From positions 1 through 64,000 of IMG/VR virus record IMGVR_UViG_3300009161_000033: a DNA stretch of 64,000 nt; one strand, given 5' to 3'. This DNA comes from a virus. The position numbers were made by a program, and so were the translations under genes. This document shows, in pieces, positions 994 to 47,778 of this stretch. Each line of letters begins with the position of its first letter. Position 1 is the first letter of the stretch. The notes under the pieces are model-generated. The model did not search any database and was not told where the DNA came from. It saw only the letters and a list, made by a program, of their open reading frames with translations.

Positions 994-2241
994 ATGAAAA
1001 TTTTTGTTCAGATTGCATCTTATAGAGACCCGCAATTAATTCCAACAATCAAAAATATGTTTGAGAACGCCAAAAAACCTAAAAATTTGGTGTTAAGTAT
1101 TTGTAGACAATATCATCCTGAGGATGGTTTTGATAACCTTGATGAATATAAAAATAATAATCAGTTTAGAATTATTGATGTTTTATATTCAGAATCAAAA
1201 GGTGTATGTTGGGCAAGAAATTTAACTCAACAACAATATAGTGGTGAGACTTACACTTTACAGATAGATTCACACATGAGATTTGAAAAGAATTGGGATG
1301 ATACTCTAATCAAAATGGTTAAACAACTACAGAAGAAAGGATTCCCTAAACCATTATTAACAGGGTATGTATCATCATTTGACCCTGACAATGACCCTCA
1401 AGGAAGAGTACAAGAACCATGGAGAATGGGGTTTGATAGATTTATCCCTGAAGGTGCAGTTTTCTTCTTACCTGAAACAATTCCTGGATGGAAAGAAATG
1501 AAAGAACCTGTGACCGCAAGATTCTACTCCGCTCACTTTGGATTCACAATAGGTAAGTTTAGTGAGGAGGTCCAACACGACCCTGAGTTCTATTTCCATG
1601 GAGAAGAGATTTCAATCGCTGCAAGAGCTTATACACATGGGTATGATTTATTCCACCCTCATAGAGTTGTGATTTGGCATGAATATACTCGTAAAGGAAG
1701 AACCAAACAATGGGATGATGATAAAGAATGGGTTAAGAAAAATGATGTTTCCCACTCTAAAAACAGACAACTATTCGGAATGGATGGTGAAGAGGTTACA
1801 TTAGACTTTGGTAAATATGGTTTTGGAACTGAAAGAACTTTAAAAGAATATGAAATATATTCAGGTTTAAGATTTTCAAGAAGAGCGGTTCAACAATACA
1901 CATTAGATAAGCAATATCCACCTAACCCTCAAATATTTGAAACCGAGGAAGAATGGGAAAGTAGTTTTGCAAGTATATTCAAACATTGTATTGATATTGG
2001 GTTCCATCAGGTTCCTGAAAAAGATTATGAGTTTTGGGTTGTCGCTTTCCATGACGAAAAAGACGAAACTCTTTTTAGAAAAGATGCTGATATAAGTGAA
2101 ATTAATAGAATGATGACCGACCCTGACGGATACTGTAAAGTATGGAGGGATTTCCAAACGGCACATAAACCAAAATATTGGGTCGTATGGCCTTATAGTA
2201 CATCAAAAGGTTGGTGTGAAAGATTAATAGGAAATTTATAA
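994..2241 (+). CDS. GT60-like (GlcNAc-type) glycosyltransferase
   Basis: The protein has 415 aa and resembles the Glycosyltransferase (GlcNAc) family, the CAZy GT60 type. Visible hallmarks are the N-terminal IFVQIASYRDPQLIPTI, the metal/nucleotide-sugar segment LQIDSHMRFEKNWD (about residues 89-102), and the acceptor-side block HGEEISIAARAYTHGYD followed by HEYTRKGR. Characterised GT60 enzymes transfer GlcNAc from UDP-GlcNAc to hydroxyproline or threonine of polypeptides (Dictyostelium Skp1, trypanosome mucins). The gene starts at an ATG with an A-rich leader and no Shine-Dalgarno. It heads a cluster of sugar and methyl transferases and lies directly after a Thr/Pro-rich virion protein, so virion protein glycosylation is a reasonable inference. 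Modification of host surface glycans is the alternative. Confidence 0.8.
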   Translation: MKIFVQIASYRDPQLIPTIKNMFENAKKPKNLVLSICRQYHPEDGFDNLDEYKNNNQFRIIDVLYSESKGVCWARNLTQQQYSGETYTLQIDSHMRFEKNWDDTLIKMVKQLQKKGFPKPLLTGYVSSFDPDNDPQGRVQEPWRMGFDRFIPEGAVFFLPETIPGWKEMKEPVTARFYSAHFGFTIGKFSEEVQHDPEFYFHGEEISIAARAYTHGYDLFHPHRVVIWHEYTRKGRTKQWDDDKEWVKKNDVSHSKNRQLFGMDGEEVTLDFGKYGFGTERTLKEYEIYSGLRFSRRAVQQYTLDKQYPPNPQIFETEEEWESSFASIFKHCIDIGFHQVPEKDYEFWVVAFHDEKDETLFRKDADISEINRMMTDPDGYCKVWRDFQTAHKPKYWVVWPYSTSKGWCERLIGNL

Positions 2242-2243
2242 AT

Positions 2244-2618
2244 ATGAAAATGCCAATTAGTGAAATATTAGATAGATATTCTATTGCGATATTAAAAAGA
2301 GAAAGAGCCGACGCTGAAAACTCTAAAGAAATTAATGATTTACAATCAGAGATTGATAAGTATTCCGAAGAACATTATGAGTTCATTAACCAAAAAATTA
2401 AAGATTTAATTGAGGTTAATGGTAATATTTGGGATTTAGAATCCGATATCCGTAAAGGTAAGGAAGGTGAATTAGGTTTAGAGGAAGTTGGTCGTAGAGC
2501 CATAAAAATACGAGAATTTAATAAAGTTAGAATCACTTACAAAAATAATGTTGTTGATTATTTTGGGGAGGGGTATAAAGATATTAAAATGAATCATGTA
2601 AGTAGTGATGATAAATAA
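2244..2618 (+). CDS. Small helical accessory protein of the glycosylation cluster
   Basis: The protein has 124 aa, is charged and largely helical, and starts KMPISEILDRYSIAILKRER. The N-terminal pattern (I-S-E-I-L-D-R-x-x-I-x-x-L-K) resembles DUF6165-type small proteins found beside glycosyltransferases, but I cannot confirm the family. It begins 2 nt after the GT60-like gene and overlaps the next glycosyltransferase by 11 nt, so it is surely co-translated with them. A role as an accessory or partner of the flanking transferases is inference only. Confidence 0.6.
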   Translation: MKMPISEILDRYSIAILKRERADAENSKEINDLQSEIDKYSEEHYEFINQKIKDLIEVNGNIWDLESDIRKGKEGELGLEEVGRRAIKIREFNKVRITYKNNVVDYFGEGYKDIKMNHVSSDDK

Positions 2619-3426
2619 AATTGTAGTAACATTAACAACCGTCCCTGAAAGACTATCTTATCTTGTTGAGGATGGGTTTAAATTAGTGGTCCAATCAATC
2701 TGTGAACAAAATCATAACAACTATGAAGTTCATTTAAATCTACCTAACGTTTATTCTGTAACAGGGGAGTTTTATTTAATACCCGAGTGGTTAGATGAAT
2801 TCCAAGGTAAATACGGACACTTAAAAATATTTAGGACTGAAGATATGGGTCCACCAACCAAAGTTATACCAACCATACTTAGAGAAATACCAGATACTTT
2901 ATTAATTGTTGTTGATGATGATTTAGTTTATCATCCCGATATGATTAACGAACATATAAAATATCATGAAGAACTACCAAATTCAGTTATGTTGTATGAT
3001 GGTAGAGGTTTAATTGGTGATAGATTTAATGATTTAAGAGATTCATGGATTATTTGTGTAACCAAACCTACAAGAATTAGTGGATTGTTACAACATTATA
3101 AATCGGCGTCGTATTTTGTGAGGTATTTTGAACAGGACTTCTATAATGATTTTGTTGGTAAAACAAAATCTGATGATATTCTTATGACTTATTATTTCTT
3201 ATTTAAAAAAATAAAAATGTATGTTATACCATATGAAAAAGATAACGATAAATTGTTAACCTACGACAATTGGTACAACTTCCAAGGAGTTACTACATTC
3301 CCTGTTACAAGACATTCTAATAGTCTCGGAAACACAGGTTGTAACCATCCAAAAATATTAGAATTAGAAACTAAATTTTTCATACCTGAAGAATTTAAGT
3401 TTATAGATAAATTACCTTTAGATTAA
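2608..3426 (+). CDS. GT-A fold glycosyltransferase
   Basis: The protein is 272 aa from the ATG at 2608; a GTG three bases earlier is possible but less likely. It has the N-terminal beta strand and loop IVVTLTTVPERLSYL typical of GT-A transferases and a DxD-type metal site in LLIVVDDDLVYHPDM (about residues 105-119). Further on come the conserved-looking SASYFVRYFEQDF and SDDILMTYYF, where the DD may be the catalytic or acceptor-side acids. It overlaps the upstream small gene by 11 nt and is followed after 3 nt by an FkbM-type methyltransferase. Donor and acceptor are unknown. It is likely cytoplasmic. Confidence 0.7.
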   Translation: MINKIVVTLTTVPERLSYLVEDGFKLVVQSICEQNHNNYEVHLNLPNVYSVTGEFYLIPEWLDEFQGKYGHLKIFRTEDMGPPTKVIPTILREIPDTLLIVVDDDLVYHPDMINEHIKYHEELPNSVMLYDGRGLIGDRFNDLRDSWIICVTKPTRISGLLQHYKSASYFVRYFEQDFYNDFVGKTKSDDILMTYYFLFKKIKMYVIPYEKDNDKLLTYDNWYNFQGVTTFPVTRHSNSLGNTGCNHPKILELETKFFIPEEFKFIDKLPLD

Positions 3427-3429
3427 AAA

Positions 3430-4119
3430 ATGGAATATTTTGAAAAAGTAAAATTATGGGACGATGAACATTGTGAAAAACATGTTTGGAACCTTGCTAA
3501 TAATATGAAAGAATTATTACAATCAAAAAACATAAATGAATTACATTATCTTGACATTGGGGCTAATGTGGGTAAGGTATATGATTTAATGAGTAACGGT
3601 TATACTGTTAAAAAAGTATGGATGTATGAAGCGAGTCCGATACTTTTTGATTACTTAAAAATTAAGTATACTAATGATGAACGAGTCGTAATAAATAATA
3701 TTGCAATCTCTGATTCTGAAGGCGAAGTTAATTTTGACGAATCCTCAATTATACATCAAATTGAAACTAACTCTCCTGATTTAAATTTTGGGTTGTCTAA
3801 GATAGGTAATTCACCCGCACAAACTAAAGTAAAATCTAATAAGTTAAGTAATCTTATAAGTGGCAATAATGAAATTTTAGATAATGTAACTTTTATTAAA
3901 ATTGACACTGAAAACGTTGACTTTAATATTTTAAATGATTTAGTAACAATAATTGATAAATTTAAAACAAAACCAATTATTGAGTTTGAGGTTAATTACC
4001 ACATGGGACCAATAACTAAAGAAATTGCACAATCTATATTAAATAAGTTCTCAAACATAGGATACAAAGAATTGAAATTAGAGGATTGTTGGGGTGACGG
4101 AATTTTAATACCTGAATAA
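3430..4119 (+). CDS. FkbM-family SAM-dependent methyltransferase
   Basis: The protein has 229 aa. The Rossmann SAM-binding motif I is visible as LDIGANVGKVYDLM (about residues 41-54), followed by the acidic motif WMYEASP and then VVINNIAISDSEGEVNF, the arrangement typical of FkbM methyltransferases. A later FIKIDTENVDFNIL matches the family's C-terminal strand. FkbM proteins usually O-methylate sugars or other hydroxyls. The position between glycosyltransferases suggests methylation of the glycan made by this cluster. It sits 3 nt after one gene and 1 nt before the next, so it is operonic. Confidence 0.75.
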   Translation: MEYFEKVKLWDDEHCEKHVWNLANNMKELLQSKNINELHYLDIGANVGKVYDLMSNGYTVKKVWMYEASPILFDYLKIKYTNDERVVINNIAISDSEGEVNFDESSIIHQIETNSPDLNFGLSKIGNSPAQTKVKSNKLSNLISGNNEILDNVTFIKIDTENVDFNILNDLVTIIDKFKTKPIIEFEVNYHMGPITKEIAQSILNKFSNIGYKELKLEDCWGDGILIPE

Positions 4120-4120
4120 T

Positions 4121-4807
4121 ATGATAGAAGAAATTTTAAAAATTGCTAAAGAGTTTAATCAAATCCCTAAGAAATATTGGGAAACGATTAGTTTAACAGG
4201 ACCTCAACATGACTTTGAGAGAAGTAAGCCAGGACCTTACCTAAAAAAGTCGGCAGAAATTGCTAGATTATTAGGAATGAAAACTGTGGTTGAGATTGGT
4301 GCGACAAGATTCGCATTATCTCAAAAATGTTTGGATTATTATAATTCAGATATGAATCCATTTGTCTCCCCACCATGTTGTGCCGATGGTCACGGAGGGA
4401 TTATTTGGACTATTGAAGGTTTTGATGTTTACTCCTGTGACATAGACCCTAATTGTAGAACACAGGCAGAATGGTCATTTGGTAATATTAACCAACCATT
4501 TCCTGATAATTTACATTTACATATTCCTGAAGATGGGATTGAGTTTCTAAGAAACTTTGATAAAAAAATTGACGTGTTATTTTTAGATGGTTGGGACACA
4601 GGGACTCACGAATATCGTGAAAAACACCTTGAGTCATTTGAGGTCGCTAAAGATAAATTATCTGAGACCCATTTAATATTGATTGATGATACGGATTTCA
4701 ATATTGACGGGGAAGGTAAAGATGCTTTCTTATCCCCACATTTATTATCGTTAGGTTATATTTTATTATTTGACGGAAGACAAAAATTATACATTAATAA
4801 AATTTAA
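4121..4807 (+). CDS. Class I SAM methyltransferase-like protein
   Basis: The protein has 228 aa. A degenerate motif I (TVVEIGATRFALSQ) is followed by an acidic strand (VYSCDIDPNCRTQAEW) and by VLFLDGWDTGTHEYREKHLE and LILIDDTDF, matching the Methyltransf_24 class of small-molecule methyltransferases. The insertion PPCCADGHGG between motif I and the acidic strand is unusual and may bind a metal or substrate. The gene is in the operon of sugar-modifying enzymes, 1 nt after the FkbM gene and 3 nt before a two-domain glycosyltransferase. The substrate is unknown. Confidence 0.6.
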   Translation: MIEEILKIAKEFNQIPKKYWETISLTGPQHDFERSKPGPYLKKSAEIARLLGMKTVVEIGATRFALSQKCLDYYNSDMNPFVSPPCCADGHGGIIWTIEGFDVYSCDIDPNCRTQAEWSFGNINQPFPDNLHLHIPEDGIEFLRNFDKKIDVLFLDGWDTGTHEYREKHLESFEVAKDKLSETHLILIDDTDFNIDGEGKDAFLSPHLLSLGYILLFDGRQKLYINKI

Positions 4808-4810
4808 GAT

Positions 4811-6484
4811 ATGTTAACATTAGTAACAGGTTTATGGGACTTAGGAAGAGGTGAACTAACTGAAGGTTGGTCAAGGTCGTATGAAAATCATTATTTGACT
4901 AAATTTAGTGAATTACTAAAGACGGAGAATAACCTCATCATTTTTGGAGATTCCGAATTAGAAAAATTTGTGTGGGAGAGAAGAGATGATTCAAATACTC
5001 AGTTCATTAATAGAAGTTTAGATTGGTTTAAAAATAATGAATTTTATAACAACATTCAAAAAATTAGAACTAACCCTAATTGGTTTAATCAAGTTGGGTG
5101 GTTAAAAGAATCCACGCAAGCAAGGTTAGAAATGTACAATCCACTTGTTATGTGTAAAATGTTTTTATTACATGATGCAAAAATCTTAGATAAATTCAAT
5201 TCTGAGTATATGTTTTGGATTGACGCAGGATTAACTAATACTGTTAGTTCGGGATATTTTACTCATGATAAAGTAATTGATAAATTACCTAACTTAATTA
5301 ATAAATTTACATTTATTACATTTCCTTATGAAACAACTTCCGAAATACATGGGTTTGAATTTAATAAAATATGTGAGTTTGCGGGTGACGTAGTTAATAA
5401 AGTTGCCAGAGGAGGATTTTTTGGAGGACCTAAAGAAACCATAACCGAAACTAATAATTTGTATTATCAATTACTTTCAACAACATTATCAAGTGGATAT
5501 ATGGGAACTGAAGAAAGTATCTTCAGTATTATGTTATACAAATACCCAATGTTATTTGATTATTCAGAGATTGAAGGTAATGGTTTGATATGGTTATTTT
5601 TTGAAAACATTAAGAACGGTGATATAAAACTTAAAAATGAGAAGTCAGGTAATGAGATTGTTAAGGTTACCAACATGAGTAAAGTCGGGTTGTATGTCAT
5701 CGGATTCAATAGTCCTAAACAATTTGAGACCTTATTATTCTCAATGAAAAAGTACGATTCAAATTTCTTAGACAAACCTAAAAAATATTTGTTAGATAAC
5801 TCAACAGACCTTTCAACTACTGATAGATATCTTGAACTTTGTAAGGAATATAATTTTGAACATATTAAAAAAGATAACTTGGGTATTTGTGGGGGAAGAC
5901 AATTTATTGCGGAACACTTTGATAAAACAGATTTAGAATATATGTTCTTTTTTGAGGATGATATGTTCTTCTACCCAAAACAAGGAGATGTTTGTAGAAA
6001 CGGATTTAACCGATATGTTGACAACCTATATACCAAATCCCTCTCAATTATTAATAAAGAAGAGTTGGATTTTATTAAACTCAACTTCACAGAATTTTAT
6101 GGGGATAACTCAACTCAGTGGAGTTGGTATAATGTACCCCAAGTTGTTAGGGAGGTGATATGGCCAAATAATAAAAAATTACCTGTACAAGGATTAGACC
6201 CGAATGCTCCGAGAACAAAATTTGAATCCATTAAAACTCATAATGGGATACCATACTCAACAGGTGAGATTTATTATTGTAACTGGCCTCAGATAGTTTC
6301 AAAAGAAGGTAATCGTAAAATGTTTTTAGAAACAACATGGGGACACCCTTTTGAACAGACGTGGATGAGTCACATCTTCCAAGAAACTGTGAAAGGTAAA
6401 ATTAAATCAGGAATACTTTTATTAACACCAACAGAACACGATAGGTTTGATTTTTATGATGGTTCTTTAAGAAAAGAAAGTTAA
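4811..6484 (+). CDS. Two-domain glycosyltransferase (HtrL/YibB-like plus GT-A-like)
   Basis: The protein has 557 aa. The N-terminal half (about residues 1-280) starts LTLVTGLWDLGRGELTEGWS and contains LVMCKMFLLHDA and YMFWIDAGLTNT, the pattern of HtrL/YibB-like (WlaTC-type) putative glycosyltransferases. The C-terminal half (about 290-557) begins KVGLYVIGFNSPKQFETLL and carries YMFFFEDDMFFYPKQG, a DxD-like site, as in GT-A family 2-type enzymes. It therefore looks like a fusion of two transferases acting in sequence on one glycan. It is the last gene of the cluster; the next gene follows after 47 nt with its own TATTTAT element. Specificities are not predictable from sequence. Confidence 0.65.
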   Translation: MLTLVTGLWDLGRGELTEGWSRSYENHYLTKFSELLKTENNLIIFGDSELEKFVWERRDDSNTQFINRSLDWFKNNEFYNNIQKIRTNPNWFNQVGWLKESTQARLEMYNPLVMCKMFLLHDAKILDKFNSEYMFWIDAGLTNTVSSGYFTHDKVIDKLPNLINKFTFITFPYETTSEIHGFEFNKICEFAGDVVNKVARGGFFGGPKETITETNNLYYQLLSTTLSSGYMGTEESIFSIMLYKYPMLFDYSEIEGNGLIWLFFENIKNGDIKLKNEKSGNEIVKVTNMSKVGLYVIGFNSPKQFETLLFSMKKYDSNFLDKPKKYLLDNSTDLSTTDRYLELCKEYNFEHIKKDNLGICGGRQFIAEHFDKTDLEYMFFFEDDMFFYPKQGDVCRNGFNRYVDNLYTKSLSIINKEELDFIKLNFTEFYGDNSTQWSWYNVPQVVREVIWPNNKKLPVQGLDPNAPRTKFESIKTHNGIPYSTGEIYYCNWPQIVSKEGNRKMFLETTWGHPFEQTWMSHIFQETVKGKIKSGILLLTPTEHDRFDFYDGSLRKES

Positions 6485-9857: not shown

Positions 9858-10207
9858 TCAAACTTTATCCCATCTGATGAGGTGATTAACCAAGTGTCCT
9901 CAACAAATTGTAAATGGATACAAGCTCCCTTTTCTAAGTGGAGCTCGTCCCATTCATCATCAATTTTATTAACGTCAGGTTTGATTATTGTTTTAGTTAA
10001 AGATTTTACAAGAACAAAAATATTTTTAGTAGAATCTAAAATAATATCAGAATTCTCAGGGTCTCTAACAACAATGAATATTTCTTCATTAAGTTTTTCT
10101 TCTTTAGGTTGGGGTATAACTTGATTATCAACCACAACAACAGTTGGGTTCATTCTTGTTTGATACCTTACGATATTTTTTCTTGGTGTAAAATCAACTG
10201 TTCTCAT
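9854..10207 (-). CDS. Conserved-looking small protein, unknown function
   Basis: The protein has 117 aa and starts MRTVDFTPRKNIVRYQTRMN. A central proline/acid linker (PQPKEEKLNEE) is followed by a beta-rich C-terminal domain ending LQFVEDTWLITSSDGIKFD. No family is recognised. Its ATG overlaps the stop of the upstream 375-aa gene by 1 nt (TAATG), so it is translationally coupled to that neck-like virion gene and probably functions with it, for example as a connector or head-tail joining partner. It is convergent with DNA polymerase. The functional suggestion rests on context only. Confidence 0.6.
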   Translation of the reverse strand: MRTVDFTPRKNIVRYQTRMNPTVVVVDNQVIPQPKEEKLNEEIFIVVRDPENSDIILDSTKNIFVLVKSLTKTIIKPDVNKIDDEWDELHLEKGACIHLQFVEDTWLITSSDGIKFD

Positions 10208-11334
10208 TAGATTACATATATTTGTCTCGGCATTGCCGTGAATTTCTTTTGTTTGTTTAGGTTTTCAGCAAGTAACGCCTCCCTTTCCATAACCTTTTCA
10301 GGTTTTAATCTTGTTAGACGACCTTCAGCTCCGATTAGTTCCTCAATTAATTTAGTTTTTTCATCTTTCGCTTCAGTTGCTAATGATTGATAGTCCATGG
10401 TTAATTCACTGTCAGGTGTTTTGATATTACCACTAAATTTACCTCTAACTCTTGATAAGGATTCTTTAGCATATGCAAAGAACCATCTACGAATCCAAAT
10501 TTGTGATGGGTTATTTAAATCAACCCATGAGATTTTCTCAAATGGCACATCGGAAGGTAATTTAATAATGTCAGGATTGTCCTTTAAACATTTATCTCTG
10601 TCGGCACCATCAACTTCATAATAGTGATACCAAACTCTACCTTTTGTCATTGTCCCATTACCAAAATCAAATTTACCGCCAGGTGTATTCATTAAATGTA
10701 TCGCTTTCTTACCTTCAGGTAACGCGGTAATTTTATAAGTTAAATCACCTGCGATGATACGTCTTTGAATATTAATTTCTTGCATTCTTAATAACATGTC
10801 AAAAGCGGGCATCATAAAATATCCACCTGCCATACCACCACCTTGAGCGAGTCCTCCTCCACCACCAAGTCCTCCTCCGACACCTAACGCCCCGAAAGAC
10901 CATGGGTCAAACATGATGTTATTTAATTCTGCGGGTGTGAACCATAATAGTTCATTAATTTCTCTACCTGCAGGGATTTCATATGATTGTTGATTTCTAA
11001 CTAATTGGATATAGTCTTTCTTTAGAACCGAATCACCACCCGCTTGTAAACCAACAATTTTGGAGTACGCGTAAGTGTATCGTTCTTCATAAGTCAAACT
11101 TTTGGTTATGAAGGCTTTAGATAAAGATTGTGTATCTAAATTAAGATTATAAAGAGAGGTCCATTGTGATTCAATTAACCAATCTTGTACGTATTGGGAG
11201 TAGTCTTCAATAGATAACTCAAGTAGTGAATCCAACATCTCATCTTCAAGTTCGACACTTCTAAGAGGAGCTCCTAATAGGTGTCGTAATCTTGTGTAAA
11301 GTTGACTTCTTTCTGGTTCTGCGATAATTGACAT
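10207..11334 (-). CDS. Putative neck/connector virion protein (gp13-like position)
   Basis: The protein has 375 aa. The N-terminus (YTRLRHLLGAPLRSVELEDE, then SIEDYSQYVQDWLI) resembles the helical start of head-tail connector or neck proteins. A long glycine-rich loop lies at about residues 149-167 (GALGVGGGLGGGGG region). A C-terminal charged helix follows (EKTKLIEELIGAEGRLTRL). Gene context supports a neck role: gp14-like and gp15-like genes lie about 3.5-5 kb away, in T4-like order but with an inserted minus-strand block. A TATTTAT element lies exactly 15 nt upstream on the minus strand. Family assignment is tentative, and another structural role such as portal accessory is possible. Confidence 0.5.
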   Translation of the reverse strand: MSIIAEPERSQLYTRLRHLLGAPLRSVELEDEMLDSLLELSIEDYSQYVQDWLIESQWTSLYNLNLDTQSLSKAFITKSLTYEERYTYAYSKIVGLQAGGDSVLKKDYIQLVRNQQSYEIPAGREINELLWFTPAELNNIMFDPWSFGALGVGGGLGGGGGLAQGGGMAGGYFMMPAFDMLLRMQEINIQRRIIAGDLTYKITALPEGKKAIHLMNTPGGKFDFGNGTMTKGRVWYHYYEVDGADRDKCLKDNPDIIKLPSDVPFEKISWVDLNNPSQIWIRRWFFAYAKESLSRVRGKFSGNIKTPDSELTMDYQSLATEAKDEKTKLIEELIGAEGRLTRLKPEKVMEREALLAENLNKQKKFTAMPRQIYVI

Positions 11335-11356: not shown

Positions 11357-12895
11357 TCAATTCAATGTATAAATTAAATCTTCTTCAGGGAAAACATATG
11401 ACCCACCAACAATCTTAACGTTTTTATTATCAAAAATTAAGACCTCTTTATTTTTTCTTGAGAATACCATCCAAGATGTGTGATATTTTTTAACCTGTCC
11501 CGTATCCAATACAATTATGGTTCCTTTTTCTTTTTTAACACGACTAAATGGTTTTATTTGAGCAGTATATTCAACATTATCAACAGTTACCTTACAGTCA
11601 ATACCCCCTAGCATATCTTCTTTGTTACCTAATTCACCAATTTGTTCAACATTATCATCACCAAATTTTTTTTTCATAACTTTGACAGTATAGTCTTCAG
11701 TTTCACTACCCATATCATGGGTAATACCTAAAGTCGCCATTAAATTTTGGAAAGTGCCTGACTCAGGTGTAAAAATTCTATCTTTATATTCGTTTAACTT
11801 CTTAACAAATTTTTTAGTTTCACTAATTTGTTCAAAAGGTTTTAAACCAATTATTTTTATTTCAGGCTGACCATAATGTTTTAACACTTTATTAATGTCA
11901 GTCAATAGAATGCAGAAACAAGTGTAGTTAGTATTAAGTTTGTTGATAACCGACCTACCAGTCCCCTCAAAATCGTATATACCCGACATTTGACCTTCAC
12001 CATATTCATTAGCTTTATAAAAGTTATCAGGAAAGACACTTTTTAAAATATCCTCAATCCCGTATCTAAATGTATTTTTAACTTTTGGATTAATATTGAA
12101 AACAAAACGAATTGCTTCGTTCATATCTCTACCACATTTTTCAGACTTACCTTCAGACAAAACGTTTCTTAATGAAACTGTCTCATTTAATTTTTTCTTA
12201 ACACGTAAATCAAGTAACTCATTAACAAATTTCCAATTAACACATTTCCAAAAGTTTTTAATGTATTCATCTTTTTTGTTACGGTACTTTAGATAATATG
12301 CGTGTTCCCATAAATCTAACCCTAACACAGGATACCCACCATTTTCAACAACGTTCATTAATGGATTATCTTGATTGGGGGTTGAAATAATTTTTAAAGT
12401 GTTTCGTTTAGTTAGAACCAACCAAACCCATCCTGAACCAAAACGTTCTTTAGCTATCTCCTCAAATTTAACTTTGAACTTTTGAAATGTTCCAAAATTT
12501 TTCTTAATTAATTCTAAAATTTCTCCTGAAGGTGACTGTGTTTTAGGAGATAACATTTTCCAAAATAACGCGTGATTAAAAGCACCACCAGCGTTATTTC
12601 TAATTGTTTTATCAAATTTACTAATTGATTTGATAATTTCTTCTAACTCTAAATCTCCATAATCTTTCTTGGATAAAGCGGAATTTAATTTTTCCACATA
12701 ACCTTTATAATGTTTATTATAATGGTACTCCATTGTTTCGGCATCAATAAATTGTTTTAGTGATGAATAGGCGTAAGGTAATTTTTCAATCCCTATTTTT
12801 TTCATTTCAGTTAGAAAGAGAGTTTGGTTTTCTTTTTTCTCTTCAATGATTAACTGTTCTGTAATTAAGTTAATCTTCTCTTCTATTTTTTTCAT
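11357..12895 (-). CDS. Mn-type superoxide dismutase fused to a nuclease-like domain
   Basis: The protein has 512 aa. Residues about 36-232 are a full SodA-like superoxide dismutase: LPYAYSSLKQFIDAETMEYH resembles E. coli SOD, and all four metal ligands are visible (H58 in YHYNKHY, H108 in FNHALFW, D194 and H198 in DLWEHAYY). GSGWVWLV and the NQDNPLM motif favour manganese. SOD converts superoxide to peroxide and oxygen. Residues 233-512 are unrelated to SOD; near 395-450 the order ETEDYTVKV, then MLGGID (D433), then AQIKP (Q446, K448) fits a PD-(D/E)xK nuclease core with Gln replacing Glu. An N-terminal extension contains LITEQL, shared with other proteins here. TATTTAT lies 4 nt before the ATG. 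SOD is certain; the nuclease is inferred. Confidence 0.85.
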   Translation of the reverse strand: MKKIEEKINLITEQLIIEEKKENQTLFLTEMKKIGIEKLPYAYSSLKQFIDAETMEYHYNKHYKGYVEKLNSALSKKDYGDLELEEIIKSISKFDKTIRNNAGGAFNHALFWKMLSPKTQSPSGEILELIKKNFGTFQKFKVKFEEIAKERFGSGWVWLVLTKRNTLKIISTPNQDNPLMNVVENGGYPVLGLDLWEHAYYLKYRNKKDEYIKNFWKCVNWKFVNELLDLRVKKKLNETVSLRNVLSEGKSEKCGRDMNEAIRFVFNINPKVKNTFRYGIEDILKSVFPDNFYKANEYGEGQMSGIYDFEGTGRSVINKLNTNYTCFCILLTDINKVLKHYGQPEIKIIGLKPFEQISETKKFVKKLNEYKDRIFTPESGTFQNLMATLGITHDMGSETEDYTVKVMKKKFGDDNVEQIGELGNKEDMLGGIDCKVTVDNVEYTAQIKPFSRVKKEKGTIIVLDTGQVKKYHTSWMVFSRKNKEVLIFDNKNVKIVGGSYVFPEEDLIYTLN

Positions 12896-12899
12896 ATCT

Positions 12900-12906
12900 A
12901 TAAATA
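12900..12906 (-). promoter_or_regulatory. TATTTAT element 4 nt from the SOD-fusion start
   Basis: Minus-strand TATTTAT is followed by AGAT and then ATG. If it is a -10 type box, the transcript would start at or next to the start codon (leaderless). Confidence 0.45.
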
Positions 12907-12911
12907 TGAAA

Positions 12912-14678
12912 CTAACTCCGATTATTAATCTTGTTCATTAAGACCTCAATAAAATCACCTTTTTCTTCTACGTTATCACCCATTACAGTATCAATAATAT
13001 TTTTCTTATTTGACAACATATCATATATAACACCCTCAATAGTGTTTTCAAAAATTGGGTAGTATACTGAAACATTTGATTTTTGTCCGTAACGGTACGC
13101 TCTATCCTCAGCTTGTGAATGGTCTGAAGGTACAAATGATAAGTCATTCATAATAACGGCCTCAGCAGAAGTTAGAGTAATACCAACACCTGCTGCTTTT
13201 AAGTTCCCAACAAAGACTTTAATTTTATCGTTCTCTTGAAATTGGTCAACCGCATATTGTCTTTGTGGTTTAGTACAAGACCCGTCTAAATAAACGGACT
13301 GTTTACCAAAGTGAGAATGTATTTTTTGTAATGTATCTGTAAAGTTTGTGAAGATAATAACTTTTTTATCTTGGTCAATGATATTCTGAGCTAGTTCAAT
13401 TGTATCATTTATTTTTTCTTCCGCAATCACCTGTCTAACTTTCATTAGTTTAGAGAATTGTACGGTTAATGATGAGGATTCTTCGGCTCTATTTTTATAC
13501 CAATCATAATATTCCCCCATCAGGCCTTCATATAATTTTGATTTTAAACGTAAATAAATTGGTGTGATAATTTTATCAGGTAAATCCAATACCTCAGTCT
13601 TTAAACGTCTTAGTACTTGACGAGAAGTTCTATCTCTTAATTCTTCTAAATTAGACGCTCCTGAAGTATTCCAAATTTTTCTATTACCCGCTTTAAATTG
13701 ATAACCTTGACAATAACGAATTGCATAAGCCATCCAATTCTGAGCCACAGGACTCTCAATTAGGTTCAACAAATTATAATAATTCATTGGTCGTGATGTC
13801 ATTGGTGTTCCTGTTAATAACCATAACTTATCAGTTCGTTTACTGAAATGGTTAACTAATTTGGTTCTTTGAGCCTGTCCATTTTGGATATAATGTGCTT
13901 CATCAATAATAATTAAATCAGGATTGAATTGATAAATTAAAGTTTCTTCATTTTTTTTGATATCGTAGAAATTCTTTAAAATATCATAATTAACAATTAC
14001 AAAATCGTGTTCTGTTGAAAAGTTTTTACCTTCTGCAATATAAACACTTCTATCCGTATAATTTTCAATCTCTCGTTGCCAATTAATTTTTAGAGATGCA
14101 GGACAAATTATAAGAATTCTTTTTGCTCCCGTTTCTATTGCTGCTATAATTGTTGAGGTTGTTTTACCTAACCCCATATCGTCAGCCAAAATAAATCTTT
14201 TGGAACCTGCTAATTTCTCAATCGCCTCCTTTTGGTGAGTAAGTGGAGGCCTATGACCATACTTTAAATAATCAATCTCAACCTTCTCAACCTTATGAGT
14301 TTTTAATAACGCTCCTTTAGGTAACCAAAAATCATGTATTTGTTCGTTATCAAGGACCTTACCCCAAATATGATATGATTTTTCTTTTTCAGCCAATAAC
14401 TTTTCAACCCAAACTTCTTTAGGTATATCGGTATATAATTTTTCATCTGCAATCTTTTTTGCAAAGTATGGGTCTAACTCAACCCATTTTTTAGCGACCT
14501 TTGGAGACTTGTCATGGAAGTTAAGAATATATTCAGATTGGGCTCTTGTAGGGTAAAACTTCTTATTAGTTTCTTTTTGATATCTTAATTTTAAGATGTA
14601 GTTATTTCCACCTGAATATGTATCAAGTATTAACAAAGCATTTTGTTCAATAACATTAATTGTATTTCCTGTAATCAA
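12912..14678 (-). CDS. SNF2-family DNA helicase/translocase
   Basis: The protein has 588 aa. RecA-like core 1 contains the Q-like element HRPPLTHQKEAIEKL, Walker A in DDMGLGKTTS, motif Ia ILIICPASLKINW, the DEAH box in LIIIDEAHYIQNG, and motif III LLTGTPM. Core 2 contains KVIIFTNFTDTL, KAAGVGITLTSAEAVI and the SNF2-type motif VI AEDRAYRYGQ. It lacks the extra domains of large remodelers and resembles small SMARCAL1/HARP-like translocases of phages, so a fork-remodeling or repair role is likely, perhaps replacing T4 UvsW. The only plausible in-frame start is a TTG; a stop codon lies four codons upstream and no ATG precedes the conserved region. It is upstream of the SOD fusion by 16 nt. Confidence 0.85.
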   Translation of the reverse strand: MITGNTINVIEQNALLILDTYSGGNNYILKLRYQKETNKKFYPTRAQSEYILNFHDKSPKVAKKWVELDPYFAKKIADEKLYTDIPKEVWVEKLLAEKEKSYHIWGKVLDNEQIHDFWLPKGALLKTHKVEKVEIDYLKYGHRPPLTHQKEAIEKLAGSKRFILADDMGLGKTTSTIIAAIETGAKRILIICPASLKINWQREIENYTDRSVYIAEGKNFSTEHDFVIVNYDILKNFYDIKKNEETLIYQFNPDLIIIDEAHYIQNGQAQRTKLVNHFSKRTDKLWLLTGTPMTSRPMNYYNLLNLIESPVAQNWMAYAIRYCQGYQFKAGNRKIWNTSGASNLEELRDRTSRQVLRRLKTEVLDLPDKIITPIYLRLKSKLYEGLMGEYYDWYKNRAEESSSLTVQFSKLMKVRQVIAEEKINDTIELAQNIIDQDKKVIIFTNFTDTLQKIHSHFGKQSVYLDGSCTKPQRQYAVDQFQENDKIKVFVGNLKAAGVGITLTSAEAVIMNDLSFVPSDHSQAEDRAYRYGQKSNVSVYYPIFENTIEGVIYDMLSNKKNIIDTVMGDNVEEKGDFIEVLMNKINNRS

Positions 14679-14726: not shown

Positions 14727-15242
14727 ATGTCAGAGAATAAAGTTCCAATTACAAGAATAGGTAAATTTTTCGGTGCCGAAGATTACGACCTTGATATCTC
14801 CATGGGAGAAGAATGGTTGTATGGTGATATGAATTTCACATTAGTGTTATACCGAGTTGATAGACAAAAAACAAAAACGGATGATGTTTATGGTGAGACC
14901 ATAACTGACGGGATTAAATTCTTACCTCCGATTGAATTTAAAGGACACGTACAAATCATGGCACCTGAAAATAAAAACTTGGGTAATTCTAAGATTGAAC
15001 AGTTTGAACCTGGTAACTTGAAAGTTTCGGTTTATCAAAAACAATTGGATGAATTAGGAGTTGATATTAACTTTGGTGATTACATTGGGTACTATGAAAC
15101 TGAGGATAGAGTTAGGTATTATACGGTGAATAATGATGGAAGGGTAATCTCTGATAACAAACATACTTACGCAGGGTATAGACCGTTCTACAGAACAATT
15201 ATAGCGTCTGCGGTTGTGAATAATGAATTTAGAGGACTATAA
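14727..15242 (+). CDS. Putative neck protein, gp14-like
   Basis: The protein has 171 aa and is beta-rich. Segments such as DVYGETITDGIKFLPPIEF, EQFEPGNLKVSVYQKQLDEL, FGDYIGYYETEDRVRYYTV and YAGYRPFYRTI follow the layout of T4 gp14: a GE/GD motif, a strand with polar repeats, then a Y-rich edge. It is shorter than T4 gp14 (256 aa). It begins the plus-strand block leading to gp15-like and sheath genes, which supports a neck role. Its stop overlaps the next ATG (TAATG). The assignment is tentative and rests on synteny plus weak sequence resemblance. Confidence 0.45.
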   Translation: MSENKVPITRIGKFFGAEDYDLDISMGEEWLYGDMNFTLVLYRVDRQKTKTDDVYGETITDGIKFLPPIEFKGHVQIMAPENKNLGNSKIEQFEPGNLKVSVYQKQLDELGVDINFGDYIGYYETEDRVRYYTVNNDGRVISDNKHTYAGYRPFYRTIIASAVVNNEFRGL

Positions 15243-15538
15243 TGGATATACTAATCACAGAAAATCAGGTTGACGTATTAAGAAGGTTACACGAGATAGG
15301 TAAGATTGTTGACTATGTTATTGATTCGTTGAATGATGACATTAAACTAGGAGGGCCAGGTAATAAACCTGACAACTTCGGTGTGTATGAAAATTGGGTT
15401 AGTCAAAGAGTTAGTTCAATGTTTAAACGTAGATATCCCGATATTGATTTTGATAAATATGATTTTCGGTTGATTGTGTCAGGACAACATAATGATGAAC
15501 TTAGAAAAGGTTTTAATAAAGTTAGAAAGAGAAAATGA
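15242..15538 (+). CDS. Small ITE-tagged protein, unknown
   Basis: The protein has 98 aa and starts MDILITENQVDVLRRL. The N-terminal I-T-E-x-Q tag followed by an amphipathic helix is shared in type with the next protein and with the SOD fusion. The rest is helical and basic (NWVSQRVSSMFKRRYP; C-terminal KGFNKVRKRK). No family is recognised. It overlaps the upstream stop by 1 nt and the downstream ATG by 4 nt, so it is co-translated with its neighbours. Packaging into the head through the tag is a hypothesis. Confidence 0.65.
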   Translation: MDILITENQVDVLRRLHEIGKIVDYVIDSLNDDIKLGGPGNKPDNFGVYENWVSQRVSSMFKRRYPDIDFDKYDFRLIVSGQHNDELRKGFNKVRKRK

Positions 15539-16083
15539 AAATTATAATTACAGAAGAACAAAGAAAAATGATTCTTGAATCTGTTACAAATAATGAAGTA
15601 ATTTGTGACAAATGTGGATGGGAATGGGATTTATCTGATGGAGGTGAAGACCCCTATATCTGTCATGAATGTGGACATAACAATTTCAAAGAAGATTACC
15701 GAGGAAAACGTGTTATGGTTTATTATAATTTACACAAACATACTTTTTCGGTTACTTATGACTCAATTGTTATAATGCACGCCGACTATGTTAAGTTAAA
15801 AGATGTTGAGTTTAGAGTTAGACAGGGGGGTAAAGAAAAAGTTAGAGGAGAAAAAAGAAAGAACGTTCACGCGTTTGTTATTGGAACATTAGTTGATTAT
15901 TGTAAATATCCTTGTGAAAATATGCCTGAAGAAAGTAACGATAATATTGTTACTTACGACCCATACAAGTATGATAGTTTTGTTTATAAGTCAACTAAAG
16001 AACCTGTTTATAGAGCCAAAGAGGTTGATATGGTTAACCAAAAAAATAAATTATTCGTCATTAACGAAATAAGACAATATTAA
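15535..16083 (+). CDS. ITE-tagged zinc-ribbon protein, unknown
   Basis: The protein has 182 aa. It starts MKIIITEEQRKMILES (ITE tag), followed by a four-Cys zinc ribbon: CDKCGWEWDL, then a short acidic loop, then CHECGHNNF (about residues 23-49). The C-terminal domain contains VMVYYNLHKHTFSV and KNVHAFVIGTLVDYC, which I associate with a recurring phage protein family of unknown function. Zinc ribbons of this type often bind nucleic acid or act as structural clamps. It overlaps the previous gene by 4 nt and is followed after 1 nt by the gp15-like gene. Confidence 0.65.
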   Translation: MKIIITEEQRKMILESVTNNEVICDKCGWEWDLSDGGEDPYICHECGHNNFKEDYRGKRVMVYYNLHKHTFSVTYDSIVIMHADYVKLKDVEFRVRQGGKEKVRGEKRKNVHAFVIGTLVDYCKYPCENMPEESNDNIVTYDPYKYDSFVYKSTKEPVYRAKEVDMVNQKNKLFVINEIRQY

Positions 16084-16084
16084 G

Positions 16085-17122
16085 ATGCCATTACCTAAGA
16101 AAATAAAAAAACATATTCCGTTAACAGAATCAAAAACTCTTTTACCAAGAAGACAAGAGTTAGTTGATAAGATAAATAAAGATGGTACTTATTTACCAAA
16201 ATCTTTATTACATGCCGATTTAGATAGAGGGTTTTTAGATTTTGTTAAAGACGAATTAAAAACTATTGTTGACGGTAAAAAAATACCAACAATTGATATA
16301 TTAGTTACAACTCAAAATTGGGCTCAATTTACTGAGACTTGGAATTTACAAAATATTGATAAGAATGTTGAACCACCATTTATAACAACGGTTAGAGTTC
16401 CTGAAGTTAAATTCGGAACCAATCCCGCAGTGTTATATAATATCCCAAACAGAAGACAGTATTTTTACGCTCAAGTTCCAACATGGGATGGGCAAAGAAG
16501 TGGTACAGATATTTATAAAATTCCTCAACCTGTTCCTGTTGATATTAGTTTTACGGTTAAAATTGTTTGTAATAGAATGAGAGAACTTAACGAGTTCAAC
16601 AAAAACGTAATTGAAAAGTTTGCGTCTAAACAAGCGTATCAAGTTATCAAGGGTCATTACATTCCAATTGTAATGGGTAATATTTCTGACGAATCAGTAA
16701 TGGAATTAGAAAAAAGAAAGTTCTACATCCAAAGTTATGAATTCACAATGTTGGGATTTTTAATCGATGAAAATGAGTTTGAAATTTCACCAGCAATTTC
16801 ACGAGTTTTACAAGTTGTTGAGTTTGAGACGGGGGTTACTAAACGACAACCTAAGAAAGATATTTTTAAAGGTGGTAATGAATTATCAGTTTTATTTGTT
16901 GTTGGTAACGATACCAATTCACAAATATTTGATTATACCACAAATATTTTAATTGGGTCAACAATTAATGTTGAATCCTTTGATGTGTTCATTAATAATG
17001 ATTATTATGGTTCAGATTTGACCGAAATTCAAATTAATACTAACGACAAATTAAAAATTGTTGTTATTAAACAAGACAGTGGTCAAGAATCAACAATTAA
17101 CTTAATAAGTAACTTACTTTAA
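16085..17122 (+). CDS. Putative tail terminator / sheath stabiliser (gp15-like)
   Basis: The protein has 345 aa (T4 gp15 is 272). A basic N-terminal extension has PLTESK at residues 12-17, another ITE-like motif. The central domain (about 75-245) contains VPTWDGQRSGTDIYKIPQPV, NRMRELNEFNKNVIEKF and GHYIPIVMG, with the layout of tail terminator/sheath-completion proteins. The C-terminal 100 residues form an added beta domain. Its place immediately upstream of the sheath gene is the T4 position of gp15, so a role in capping the tail tube and sheath before head joining is likely. Its stop overlaps that of the minus-strand RHH gene. Confidence 0.5.
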   Translation: MPLPKKIKKHIPLTESKTLLPRRQELVDKINKDGTYLPKSLLHADLDRGFLDFVKDELKTIVDGKKIPTIDILVTTQNWAQFTETWNLQNIDKNVEPPFITTVRVPEVKFGTNPAVLYNIPNRRQYFYAQVPTWDGQRSGTDIYKIPQPVPVDISFTVKIVCNRMRELNEFNKNVIEKFASKQAYQVIKGHYIPIVMGNISDESVMELEKRKFYIQSYEFTMLGFLIDENEFEISPAISRVLQVVEFETGVTKRQPKKDIFKGGNELSVLFVVGNDTNSQIFDYTTNILIGSTINVESFDVFINNDYYGSDLTEIQINTNDKLKIVVIKQDSGQESTINLISNLL

Positions 17123-20753: not shown

Positions 20754-20783
20754 GGACAAGTCGGTTAAAAAATCGGCTTGTCC
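20754..20783 (+). terminator. Rho-independent terminator after sheath
   Basis: A 10-bp stem with one T-G wobble (GGACAAGTCG pairs with CGGCTTGTCC) around a 10-nt A-rich loop, followed by TTATTTATT. It separates the sheath gene from the HAD gene. Confidence 0.8.
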
Positions 20784-20784
20784 T

Positions 20785-20791
20785 TATTTAT
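20785..20791 (+). promoter_or_regulatory. TATTTAT element 4 nt from the HAD gene start
   Basis: TATTTAT, then TAAT, then ATG at 20796. It lies in the T-rich tail of the preceding terminator, so part of its composition could be explained by the terminator. Confidence 0.35.
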
Positions 20792-20795
20792 TAAT

Positions 20796-21620
20796 ATGAC
20801 AATGATAAGAAAAGGAAGATATATTAATGAAGGGTTGACTGAGGAGGGAACTCCTGACATGAAGTATTATGCTTTTGATTGGGATGATAATATCATGATT
20901 ATGCCAACAAAAATTATTTTAAAAGATGAAAGTGGTGATGAGGTTGGAATGACAACTGAAGACTTTGCGGAATATAGAACTGAAATTGGTAAAGAACCTT
21001 TTGAATACGAGGGACATACTATTGTTGGTTTTGCTGAGGAACCTTTCAGATACTTTGGTGTTAAAGGTGACAAACAATTTATTATTGATTCTTTAACCGC
21101 AAAACCAGGACCTGCATGGGACGACTTTGTGGAAGCAATTAATAATGGGTCTATCTTCTCAATAATAACTGCAAGAGGACATACCCCAAGTGTATTAAAG
21201 GAAGCAATCTATAACCTTATCATTTCAAACCGAAATGGAATATCTTCAAAAGAGTTAGTTAAGAATTTAGAAAAATATCGTGAATTAGCCGACCAAGAAA
21301 ATACGTCTCCAAAAGAAATGATTCGTGAATATTTGGACTTATGTAAATATCATCCTGTAAGTTATGGTGAAGGTTCCGCAACTAATCCTGAAGAAGGTAA
21401 AGTTAAAGCGATGAAAGAATTTATTAACTATATTAAAGAAACTTCTTCAAATATTAATAAACAGGCATATTTAAAGAATAAAGTATCCAACAGATTTGTA
21501 TTACCTAAGATAGGTTTTTCAGATGACGATATAAGGAATGTAGAAACAATGAGAAAGAATTTTGATAAAGACGACTTAAATATTTATCATACAAGTAAAG
21601 AAGGTAAAAAGAATTACTAG
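20796..21620 (+). CDS. HAD-superfamily phosphatase-like protein
   Basis: The protein is 274 aa from the ATG at 20796; a TTG at 20778 lies inside the terminator and is rejected. Residues 24-34 (YYAFDWDDNIM) carry the HAD motif I aspartates D28 and D30, and IFSIITARGHTPSVL is motif II with its Thr. A C-terminal helical region ends in a basic tail. The N-terminus YINEGLTEEGTPD carries I/L-x-E motifs like those of the ITE-tagged proteins. HAD enzymes hydrolyse phosphate esters; the substrate is unknown, and nucleic acid ends or nucleotides are plausible for a phage. Its position between sheath and tube genes is unusual. Confidence 0.7.
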   Translation: MTMIRKGRYINEGLTEEGTPDMKYYAFDWDDNIMIMPTKIILKDESGDEVGMTTEDFAEYRTEIGKEPFEYEGHTIVGFAEEPFRYFGVKGDKQFIIDSLTAKPGPAWDDFVEAINNGSIFSIITARGHTPSVLKEAIYNLIISNRNGISSKELVKNLEKYRELADQENTSPKEMIREYLDLCKYHPVSYGEGSATNPEEGKVKAMKEFINYIKETSSNINKQAYLKNKVSNRFVLPKIGFSDDDIRNVETMRKNFDKDDLNIYHTSKEGKKNY

Positions 21621-46722: not shown

Positions 46723-47778
46723 ATGAACATTAAAAACATTTTAATTACCGAAATAGAAAAGAAAATTATTAGAGAAATGTATGGGATGATTACTGAGGAA
46801 GATTCAAAACCAATCAGAATTAGACATAAAGATACATCAAGATACGATGTTAATTCAACAGACCCTAAAAATTTTATAGATAAATTTGTAAATGATTTGG
46901 TTACCAAAATAGATGCGACTCCTGGAGGTAAACAAATGAGAGATAGTGGTAAGATGACTATAGTAAGTTTACTAACTCAAACAGGTGCTAGTAATCATTG
47001 GGGAGGTAAACCGACAGGTTATGATTTTGAAAATAATTTAACAACACCCGCATCGTCTAAAATTGAAACGGAACTTTACGATAAAAATAAAGATTTGTCT
47101 AAAAGAAGAGGTGATGATTTTAATAAATTGTTACAAACTAAATTAGATAAATTTGGTATTAAATTTTCACCTCAAACAAAAATGGCAACTTCTGCAGATG
47201 TTATTAATACAGGAGGTAAAAATGACGAACAAAAAGACTCATCCAAATACCCGAATAACGGTCAATATGTTGGACTTACTTTATCATTACAATACGCGGA
47301 TAAAATAACTACACAAACAACCTCACCAACTAAAGTGAACATTGCCTCATTTCAAAGTTGGAAAGATATTAAATCAGACCACATATTAACAGGGTCTTAT
47401 TTTTGTGATGGTACTAATAGTGAAAAACGTGGAGCTTCTAGTGATACTTATGAAAGTGTTTGTTCTAAATTACCTGAAAATTTAAGAAATCATGACCACA
47501 TATCCGCATTTGAAATAAAATGGGGACCTAATGTTATTGGAGCGACTTATACTGTACCCGTCGCAAGATGGATGTTTATATGGGGACCTGACAATAAAAT
47601 AACCTCAATCTACAGAAAACAATACAATAAGAAATATCCTGTGGACCAAAGTTTACCTGAACAACAAGTAACTCTTGATGACCCGACTTTAAAATTCTTT
47701 ATGGGAATATCAGAAGGTCAAACCGCAACTGGCGGGGAAAGATACAAAAAATATGTGTTACCTTTCATTAAAAAATAA
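46723..47778 (+). CDS. ITE-tagged protein with possible OmpA-like segment
   Basis: The protein has 351 aa and starts MNIKNILITEIEKKIIREMY, an I-T-E tag followed by an amphipathic helix as in the other tagged proteins. A region near residues 118-150 (LYDKNKDLSKRRGDDFNKLL, then DKFGIKF) recalls the N-x-x-LSxRR core of OmpA-like domains, also seen in the 1703-aa baseplate protein. The later part (YVGLTLSLQYADKITTQTTS, then VPVARWMFIWGP) is beta-rich. No family is certain. It lies between nrdA and gp25, with its own TATTTAT element. It could be an injected internal protein that meets peptidoglycan, which is speculation. Confidence 0.55.
   Translation: MNIKNILITEIEKKIIREMYGMITEEDSKPIRIRHKDTSRYDVNSTDPKNFIDKFVNDLVTKIDATPGGKQMRDSGKMTIVSLLTQTGASNHWGGKPTGYDFENNLTTPASSKIETELYDKNKDLSKRRGDDFNKLLQTKLDKFGIKFSPQTKMATSADVINTGGKNDEQKDSSKYPNNGQYVGLTLSLQYADKITTQTTSPTKVNIASFQSWKDIKSDHILTGSYFCDGTNSEKRGASSDTYESVCSKLPENLRNHDHISAFEIKWGPNVIGATYTVPVARWMFIWGPDNKITSIYRKQYNKKYPVDQSLPEQQVTLDDPTLKFFMGISEGQTATGGERYKKYVLPFIKK

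Follow-up and report, generated by a model that had tools for sequence, protein, structure and literature searches.

In bacteriophage T4, the internal proteins IPI-IPIII and Alt carry N-terminal capsid-targeting sequences and are processed in the prohead by the protease gp21, which cuts after L/I-X-E, and such targeting sequences also carry foreign enzymes, including nucleases, into the head (PMC9026906). A virion-associated superoxide dismutase (SOD) has been described for the chlorovirus PBCV-1, whose Cu/Zn-SOD A245R is expressed late and packaged in the virion (PMC7019647). Fe/Mn SODs (PF00081, PF02777) form an unrelated SOD family, and SODs annotated on their own occur in phage records such as those of Pseudomonas phages Callisto and MIJ3. 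The freshwater Bacteroidetes bS21 jumbo phages have genomes of 293-331 kb with a GC content of 31-33.7% and T4-like head genes, and the main text of that study does not mention superoxide (PMC9723584). Here, we analyzed a 64,000-nucleotide stretch (positions 1 to 64,000 of the IMG/VR record IMGVR_UViG_3300009161_000033, designated as the window), in which one gene joins an SOD to a nuclease-like domain. The gene belongs to a family of what appear to be giant phages of lake bacteria, and its product is proposed to be loaded into the virus head and cut there into two enzymes. The features of the locus are as follows.

11357-12895, minus strand: SOD-nuclease gene, 512 aa, ATG start.
12806-12895, minus strand: residues 1-30, N-terminal propeptide and proposed capsid-targeting sequence, ending in L28-T29-E30.
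12182-12805, minus strand: residues 31-238, Mn-type SOD, proposed mature product 1 (208 aa).
12152-12181, minus strand: residues 239-248, interdomain peptide between the sites [L/I]-x-E238 and [L/I]-x-E248.
11360-12151, minus strand: residues 249-512, helical plus PD-(D/E)xK-like nuclease domain, proposed mature product 2 (264 aa), with the core E400, D427, D433, Q446 and K448.
12899-12906, minus strand: TATTTATA, late-promoter-like motif (inferred function) in the gap between the SNF2 gene and the SOD-nuclease gene.
12912-14678, minus strand: SNF2-type helicase gene, constant upstream neighbor.
10207-11334, minus strand: head-tail-adaptor-like gene (phrog_211 match, E 3.3e-9 over part of the protein), constant downstream neighbor.
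15535-16083, plus strand: ITE-tagged zinc-ribbon/L5 gp82-like gene, ending at an [L/I]-x-E linker.

The first-pass annotation described an Mn-type SOD followed in frame by about 280 residues with a GGID...AQIKP pattern, and this observation was confirmed, with the minus strand now added. Residues 36-226 are a complete Fe/Mn SOD. Sod_Fe_N and Sod_Fe_C matched at E 4e-23 and 3e-39, and the best PDB match was an Mn-SOD (1gv3, E 8e-58, residues 37-226). Both SOD domains are above the curated cut-offs (133.6 and 82.1 bits vs 20.9 and 27). The metal ligands H58, H108, D194 and H198 are at the annotated positions and are invariant in 80 of 80 distinct homologues together with H62, Y66, Gly103-Gly104, Gln175 and Glu197, which is a Mn-type pattern. 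The closest cellular SODs are mostly from Bacteroidota (about 50-52% identity), consistent with capture from a host-like source. The C-terminal part contains the GGID...AQIKP stretch, in which D433, Q446 and K448 are invariant.

A frameshift or a chimeric assembly of two genes, which had been named beforehand as a condition that would overturn the annotation, was excluded. Full-length fusions at 59-100% identity were found in 80 IMG/VR contigs from many metagenomes, and down to 54% with a divergent query, giving 80 distinct complete proteins over all scans. Both domains are under strong purifying selection (median dN/dS 0.04 and 0.07 for the SOD and the C-terminal domain, respectively). The order SNF2, [SOD-]nuclease, adaptor was kept in 221 of 221 loci examined, although these loci overlap and are not all independent contigs. 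Thus, this is a real, functional gene. All SOD copies found in this syntenic slot are fused to the nuclease, and no free-standing SOD reading frame was found there.

The C-terminal domain has no significant Pfam, PHROG or PDB sequence match. A Pfam YcaO_C match at residues 352-431 (E 0.0025) and a PADLOC Csx1 match (E 0.0026) were below cut-off or isolated and were treated as chance, a PDB sequence search with the C-domain profile returned nothing, and no cellular relatives of the domain were found in the genome contigs searched. An alignment of fusions, SOD-less orthologues and remote paralogues (46 sequences, down to 21% identity) left 14 invariant columns, among them E400, D427, D433, Q446, K448 and P449. 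This is the layout of a PD-(D/E)xK active site with Gln in place of the second acid. The AlphaFold2 model of the domain is confident (pLDDT 92.4, pTM 0.84). A Foldseek search against the PDB gave, as its 16 best matches, only I-Ssp6803I and Hjc-type resolvases. I-Ssp6803I is a PD-(D/E)xK enzyme (PMC1995217). The Hjc resolvases belong to the same superfamily. The individual matches are weak (best E 0.0064, none below 0.001, target TM about 0.34-0.46), and membership of this fold is likely but not proven. A fold unrelated to nucleases, the other condition named beforehand as one that would overturn the annotation, was not indicated. One viral entry in BFVD (A0A6J5L953, 501 aa, named superoxide dismutase) is a full-length relative, and thus the sequence type is already deposited, under the SOD name alone. 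Another BFVD entry, A0A8D9CCA0, is an uncharacterised marine phage protein of 1113 residues whose model matches the C-domain (TM 0.83 on the query) and is possibly a larger polyprotein.

To examine the boundaries of the domains, every column of the fusion alignment (32 non-redundant sequences) was scanned for [L/I]-x-E in at least 90% of sequences, and only four positions were obtained: 30, 197, 238 and 248. E197 is the active-site Glu of the SOD motif DLWEH inside the fold, whereas the other three are located at the borders of tag and SOD, SOD and linker, and linker and nuclease. The site at E30 is present in 32 of 32 non-redundant sequences and, with L or I two residues before, in 80 of 80 homologues, while one of the 32 lacks the E248 site. 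The linker around these sites varies (2-3.6 bits at many positions). The AlphaFold model of the whole chain (overall pTM 0.48) drops below pLDDT 50 only at residues 22-41 and 232-250, and residues 1-30 are predicted as a helix. After E30 the chain reads M/A-K-K-I-G-I-E-K-L-P, resembling the start of a normal SOD. The first-pass annotation had pointed to an N-terminal LITEQ tag as a hint of packaging into the head. This tag is present at residues 10-14 but poorly conserved ([L/I]-x-E in 25 of 32 sequences), and it was rejected as the main processing site; the hint was right in spirit but referred to the wrong residues.

The window lies in a 92-kb record, probably a fragment, in which neither a gp21 match nor a PF04586-type protease was found. 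Longer relatives carry a gp21-like S77 protease, found in 5 of 11 records (E to 1.5e-25), three of which carry the fusion (records G002, with the gp21 homologue at 242014-242739, G003 and G005), and a gp23 capsid protein; four of these longer relatives are 309-322 kb. Their capsid protein has FLINE|AT, the same motif, at the expected N-terminal boundary, and cleavage at this position is inferred.

Short N-terminal tags of the type MKIIITE are enriched 25- and 26-fold at residues 4-8 in G002 and in a further relative, G007 (p about 1e-18), and 14-fold in the record of the window. Many of the ITE-tagged genes look paralogous, which inflates the enrichment, and the genes were called by a simple greedy ORF method. 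G002 (loci L164-L180) and G007 (L463-L478) each encode dozens of short proteins of unknown function starting with MK-I/L-I-ITE-S/N-Q/K, many of them in tandem clusters. In the window, further plus-strand genes with [L/I]-T-E within the first ~22 residues are candidates for the same capsid cargo set (15242-15538, 15535-16083, 16085-17122, 46723-47778 and 20778-21620). The distant Flavobacterium phage immuto showed no ITE enrichment in the 100 kb tested. A TATTTATA motif lies within 40 nt of 43 of 366 genes in G002 (2.8 expected), including the prohead protease, a scaffold-like gene, tail genes, many tagged genes and the SOD-nuclease gene. This motif is about 15-18 times enriched in the 40 nt upstream of genes in G002 and G007 and is a candidate late promoter for these phages; in the window it lies closer to the start codon than in most relatives. 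TATAAATA, considered as a late promoter in the T4 orientation, was less enriched than TATTTATA. The window also contains a cluster of glycosyltransferase-like genes at 994-6484, plus strand (GlcNAc transferase PF11397, HtrL_YibB PF09612 and a weak GT2 match).

SOD-less versions occupy the same slot, and on the C-domain tree the presence of SOD changes at least three times, probably by losses, with the nuclease retained. Two SOD-less records of 318 and 309 kb, G006 and G007, have no SOD anywhere. The SOD-less orthologues mostly keep a propeptide-like N-terminus and an [L/I]-x-E before the nuclease, although some (loci L295 and L319) lack the latter site. In the SOD-less loci L109 and L110 both elements are retained, as after an in-frame deletion of the SOD. 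A second type of fusion (L003, L007, L034, L041, L045 and L049) consists of an ITE tag, a zinc ribbon (in most), an L5 gp82-like domain and the same nuclease module behind an [L/I]-x-E in the linker; the corresponding gene of the window (15535-16083) stops at that linker. Two more N-terminally tagged proteins, L363 and L156, contain remote copies of the nuclease module, and L156 lies close to the prohead protease gene.

The best explanation, which we consider more likely than not, is that the gene encodes a capsid-targeted polyprotein. In this view, residues 1-30 would act like a T4-type capsid-targeting propeptide that brings the chain into the prohead, and the gp21-type protease would cut after E30, E238 and E248, releasing a normal-sized Mn-SOD (31-238) and a PD-(D/E)xK-type nuclease (249-512) inside the head. 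Both would be ejected with the DNA at the next infection, where the SOD would remove superoxide around the incoming genome early in infection and the nuclease would act independently on DNA. The domains, the conserved active-site residues, the three sites, the gp21 and gp23 homologues in relatives and the SOD-less versions in the same slot are evident from the sequences, whereas targeting, cleavage, packaging, ejection, the dismutase and DNA-cleaving activities and the protective role are inferred from sequence alone, without protein-level evidence. In giant phage SPN3US the identified cleavages remove N-terminal propeptides, apart from the self-cleavage of the protease (PMC10052503), and no precedent for an internal gp21 cut releasing two enzymes was found in the papers searched. 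If the proposal is true, a T4-type prohead protease does more than trim propeptides and separates packaged enzymes from a polyprotein, as animal-virus proteases do, and a phage would deliver an SOD from the virion, making it testable whether superoxide limits early phage infection. The tag and the [L/I]-x-E borders would also provide a signature with which packaged effector repertoires of uncultivated jumbo phages could be read from sequence. A broader possibility, slightly less likely than not, is a genome-wide capsid cargo system in which dozens of ITE-tagged proteins, some as polyproteins cut by the prohead protease into several enzymes, are loaded into the head and injected, with modules gained and lost between lineages; an antioxidant enzyme and a nuclease delivered from one precursor would be one example.

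The interpretation of the first-pass annotation was partly supported: the in-frame joining of an SOD to a PD-(D/E)xK-like domain (Gln variant) in a phage and a link to head packaging held, but a single bifunctional enzyme coupling redox state to DNA cleavage is not supported. The conservation of the fusion in 80 distinct proteins with both active sites invariant is in agreement with an uncut enzyme whose domains act together, for example with superoxide removal or redox sensing coupled to DNA cleavage. However, SOD is absent in several lineages with the nuclease in place, conserved [L/I]-x-E sites lie in a low-confidence linker, and the overall pTM gives no evidence of fixed domain contact, which makes this reading unlikely. 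The annotation also suggested that the adjacent SNF2 helicase could act together with the protein. SNF2 is a constant neighbor but also of SOD-less versions, so the adjacency says nothing specific about SOD and a functional partnership remains undecided. A similarly unlikely alternative is a head-assembly (core) protein cut in the prohead whose products stay or act in the head, for example on packaged DNA or against capsid oxidation during storage, and are not injected effectors. The head-tail-adaptor-like neighbor and the same site logic as in capsid proteins favor it, whereas the dispensability of SOD, unlike that of core assembly proteins, and the invariant catalytic residues, which argue for enzymes, do not. 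It is still less likely that the sites and tag serve something else, such as a coiled-coil interaction, and that the SOD acts in the infected cell as an ordinary auxiliary gene fused to a nuclease by chance. The predicted helix at residues 1-30 and the inferred status of cleavage and packaging leave room for it, but three separate conserved sites match gp21 specificity exactly at the domain borders, in addition to the genome-wide tag set. Nothing was found in support of an assembly artefact, which the relatives refute.

In comparison with the known systems, the relatives of the window resemble the bS21 jumbo phages, G002 and G007 in size and G002 and the window in GC content. The SOD of PBCV-1 provides a precedent for a late, virion-packaged viral SOD, while it belongs to an unrelated SOD family of a eukaryotic virus, for which no nuclease fusion or prohead-protease route is described (PMC7019647). 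The SOD domain is complete, with all ligands and gate residues and the Mn-type Gly-Gly and Gln of Fe/Mn SODs, but is embedded in a larger chain. The C-terminal domain shares the E...D...D-x12-Q-x-K pattern with PD-(D/E)xK nucleases, especially I-Ssp6803I and archaeal Hjc resolvases, and differs from them by an extra N-terminal helical half; it defines a nuclease-like domain family not matched in Pfam or PHROGs. The short N-terminal propeptide ending in L/I-x-E and the gp21-type protease and gp23-type capsid of the relatives correspond to the system of the T4 internal proteins and Alt, and the ITE tags recall the N-terminus of Alt, although no sequence homology to these proteins was shown. In contrast to the T4 proteins, two different enzymes here follow one propeptide, with extra conserved sites between them.
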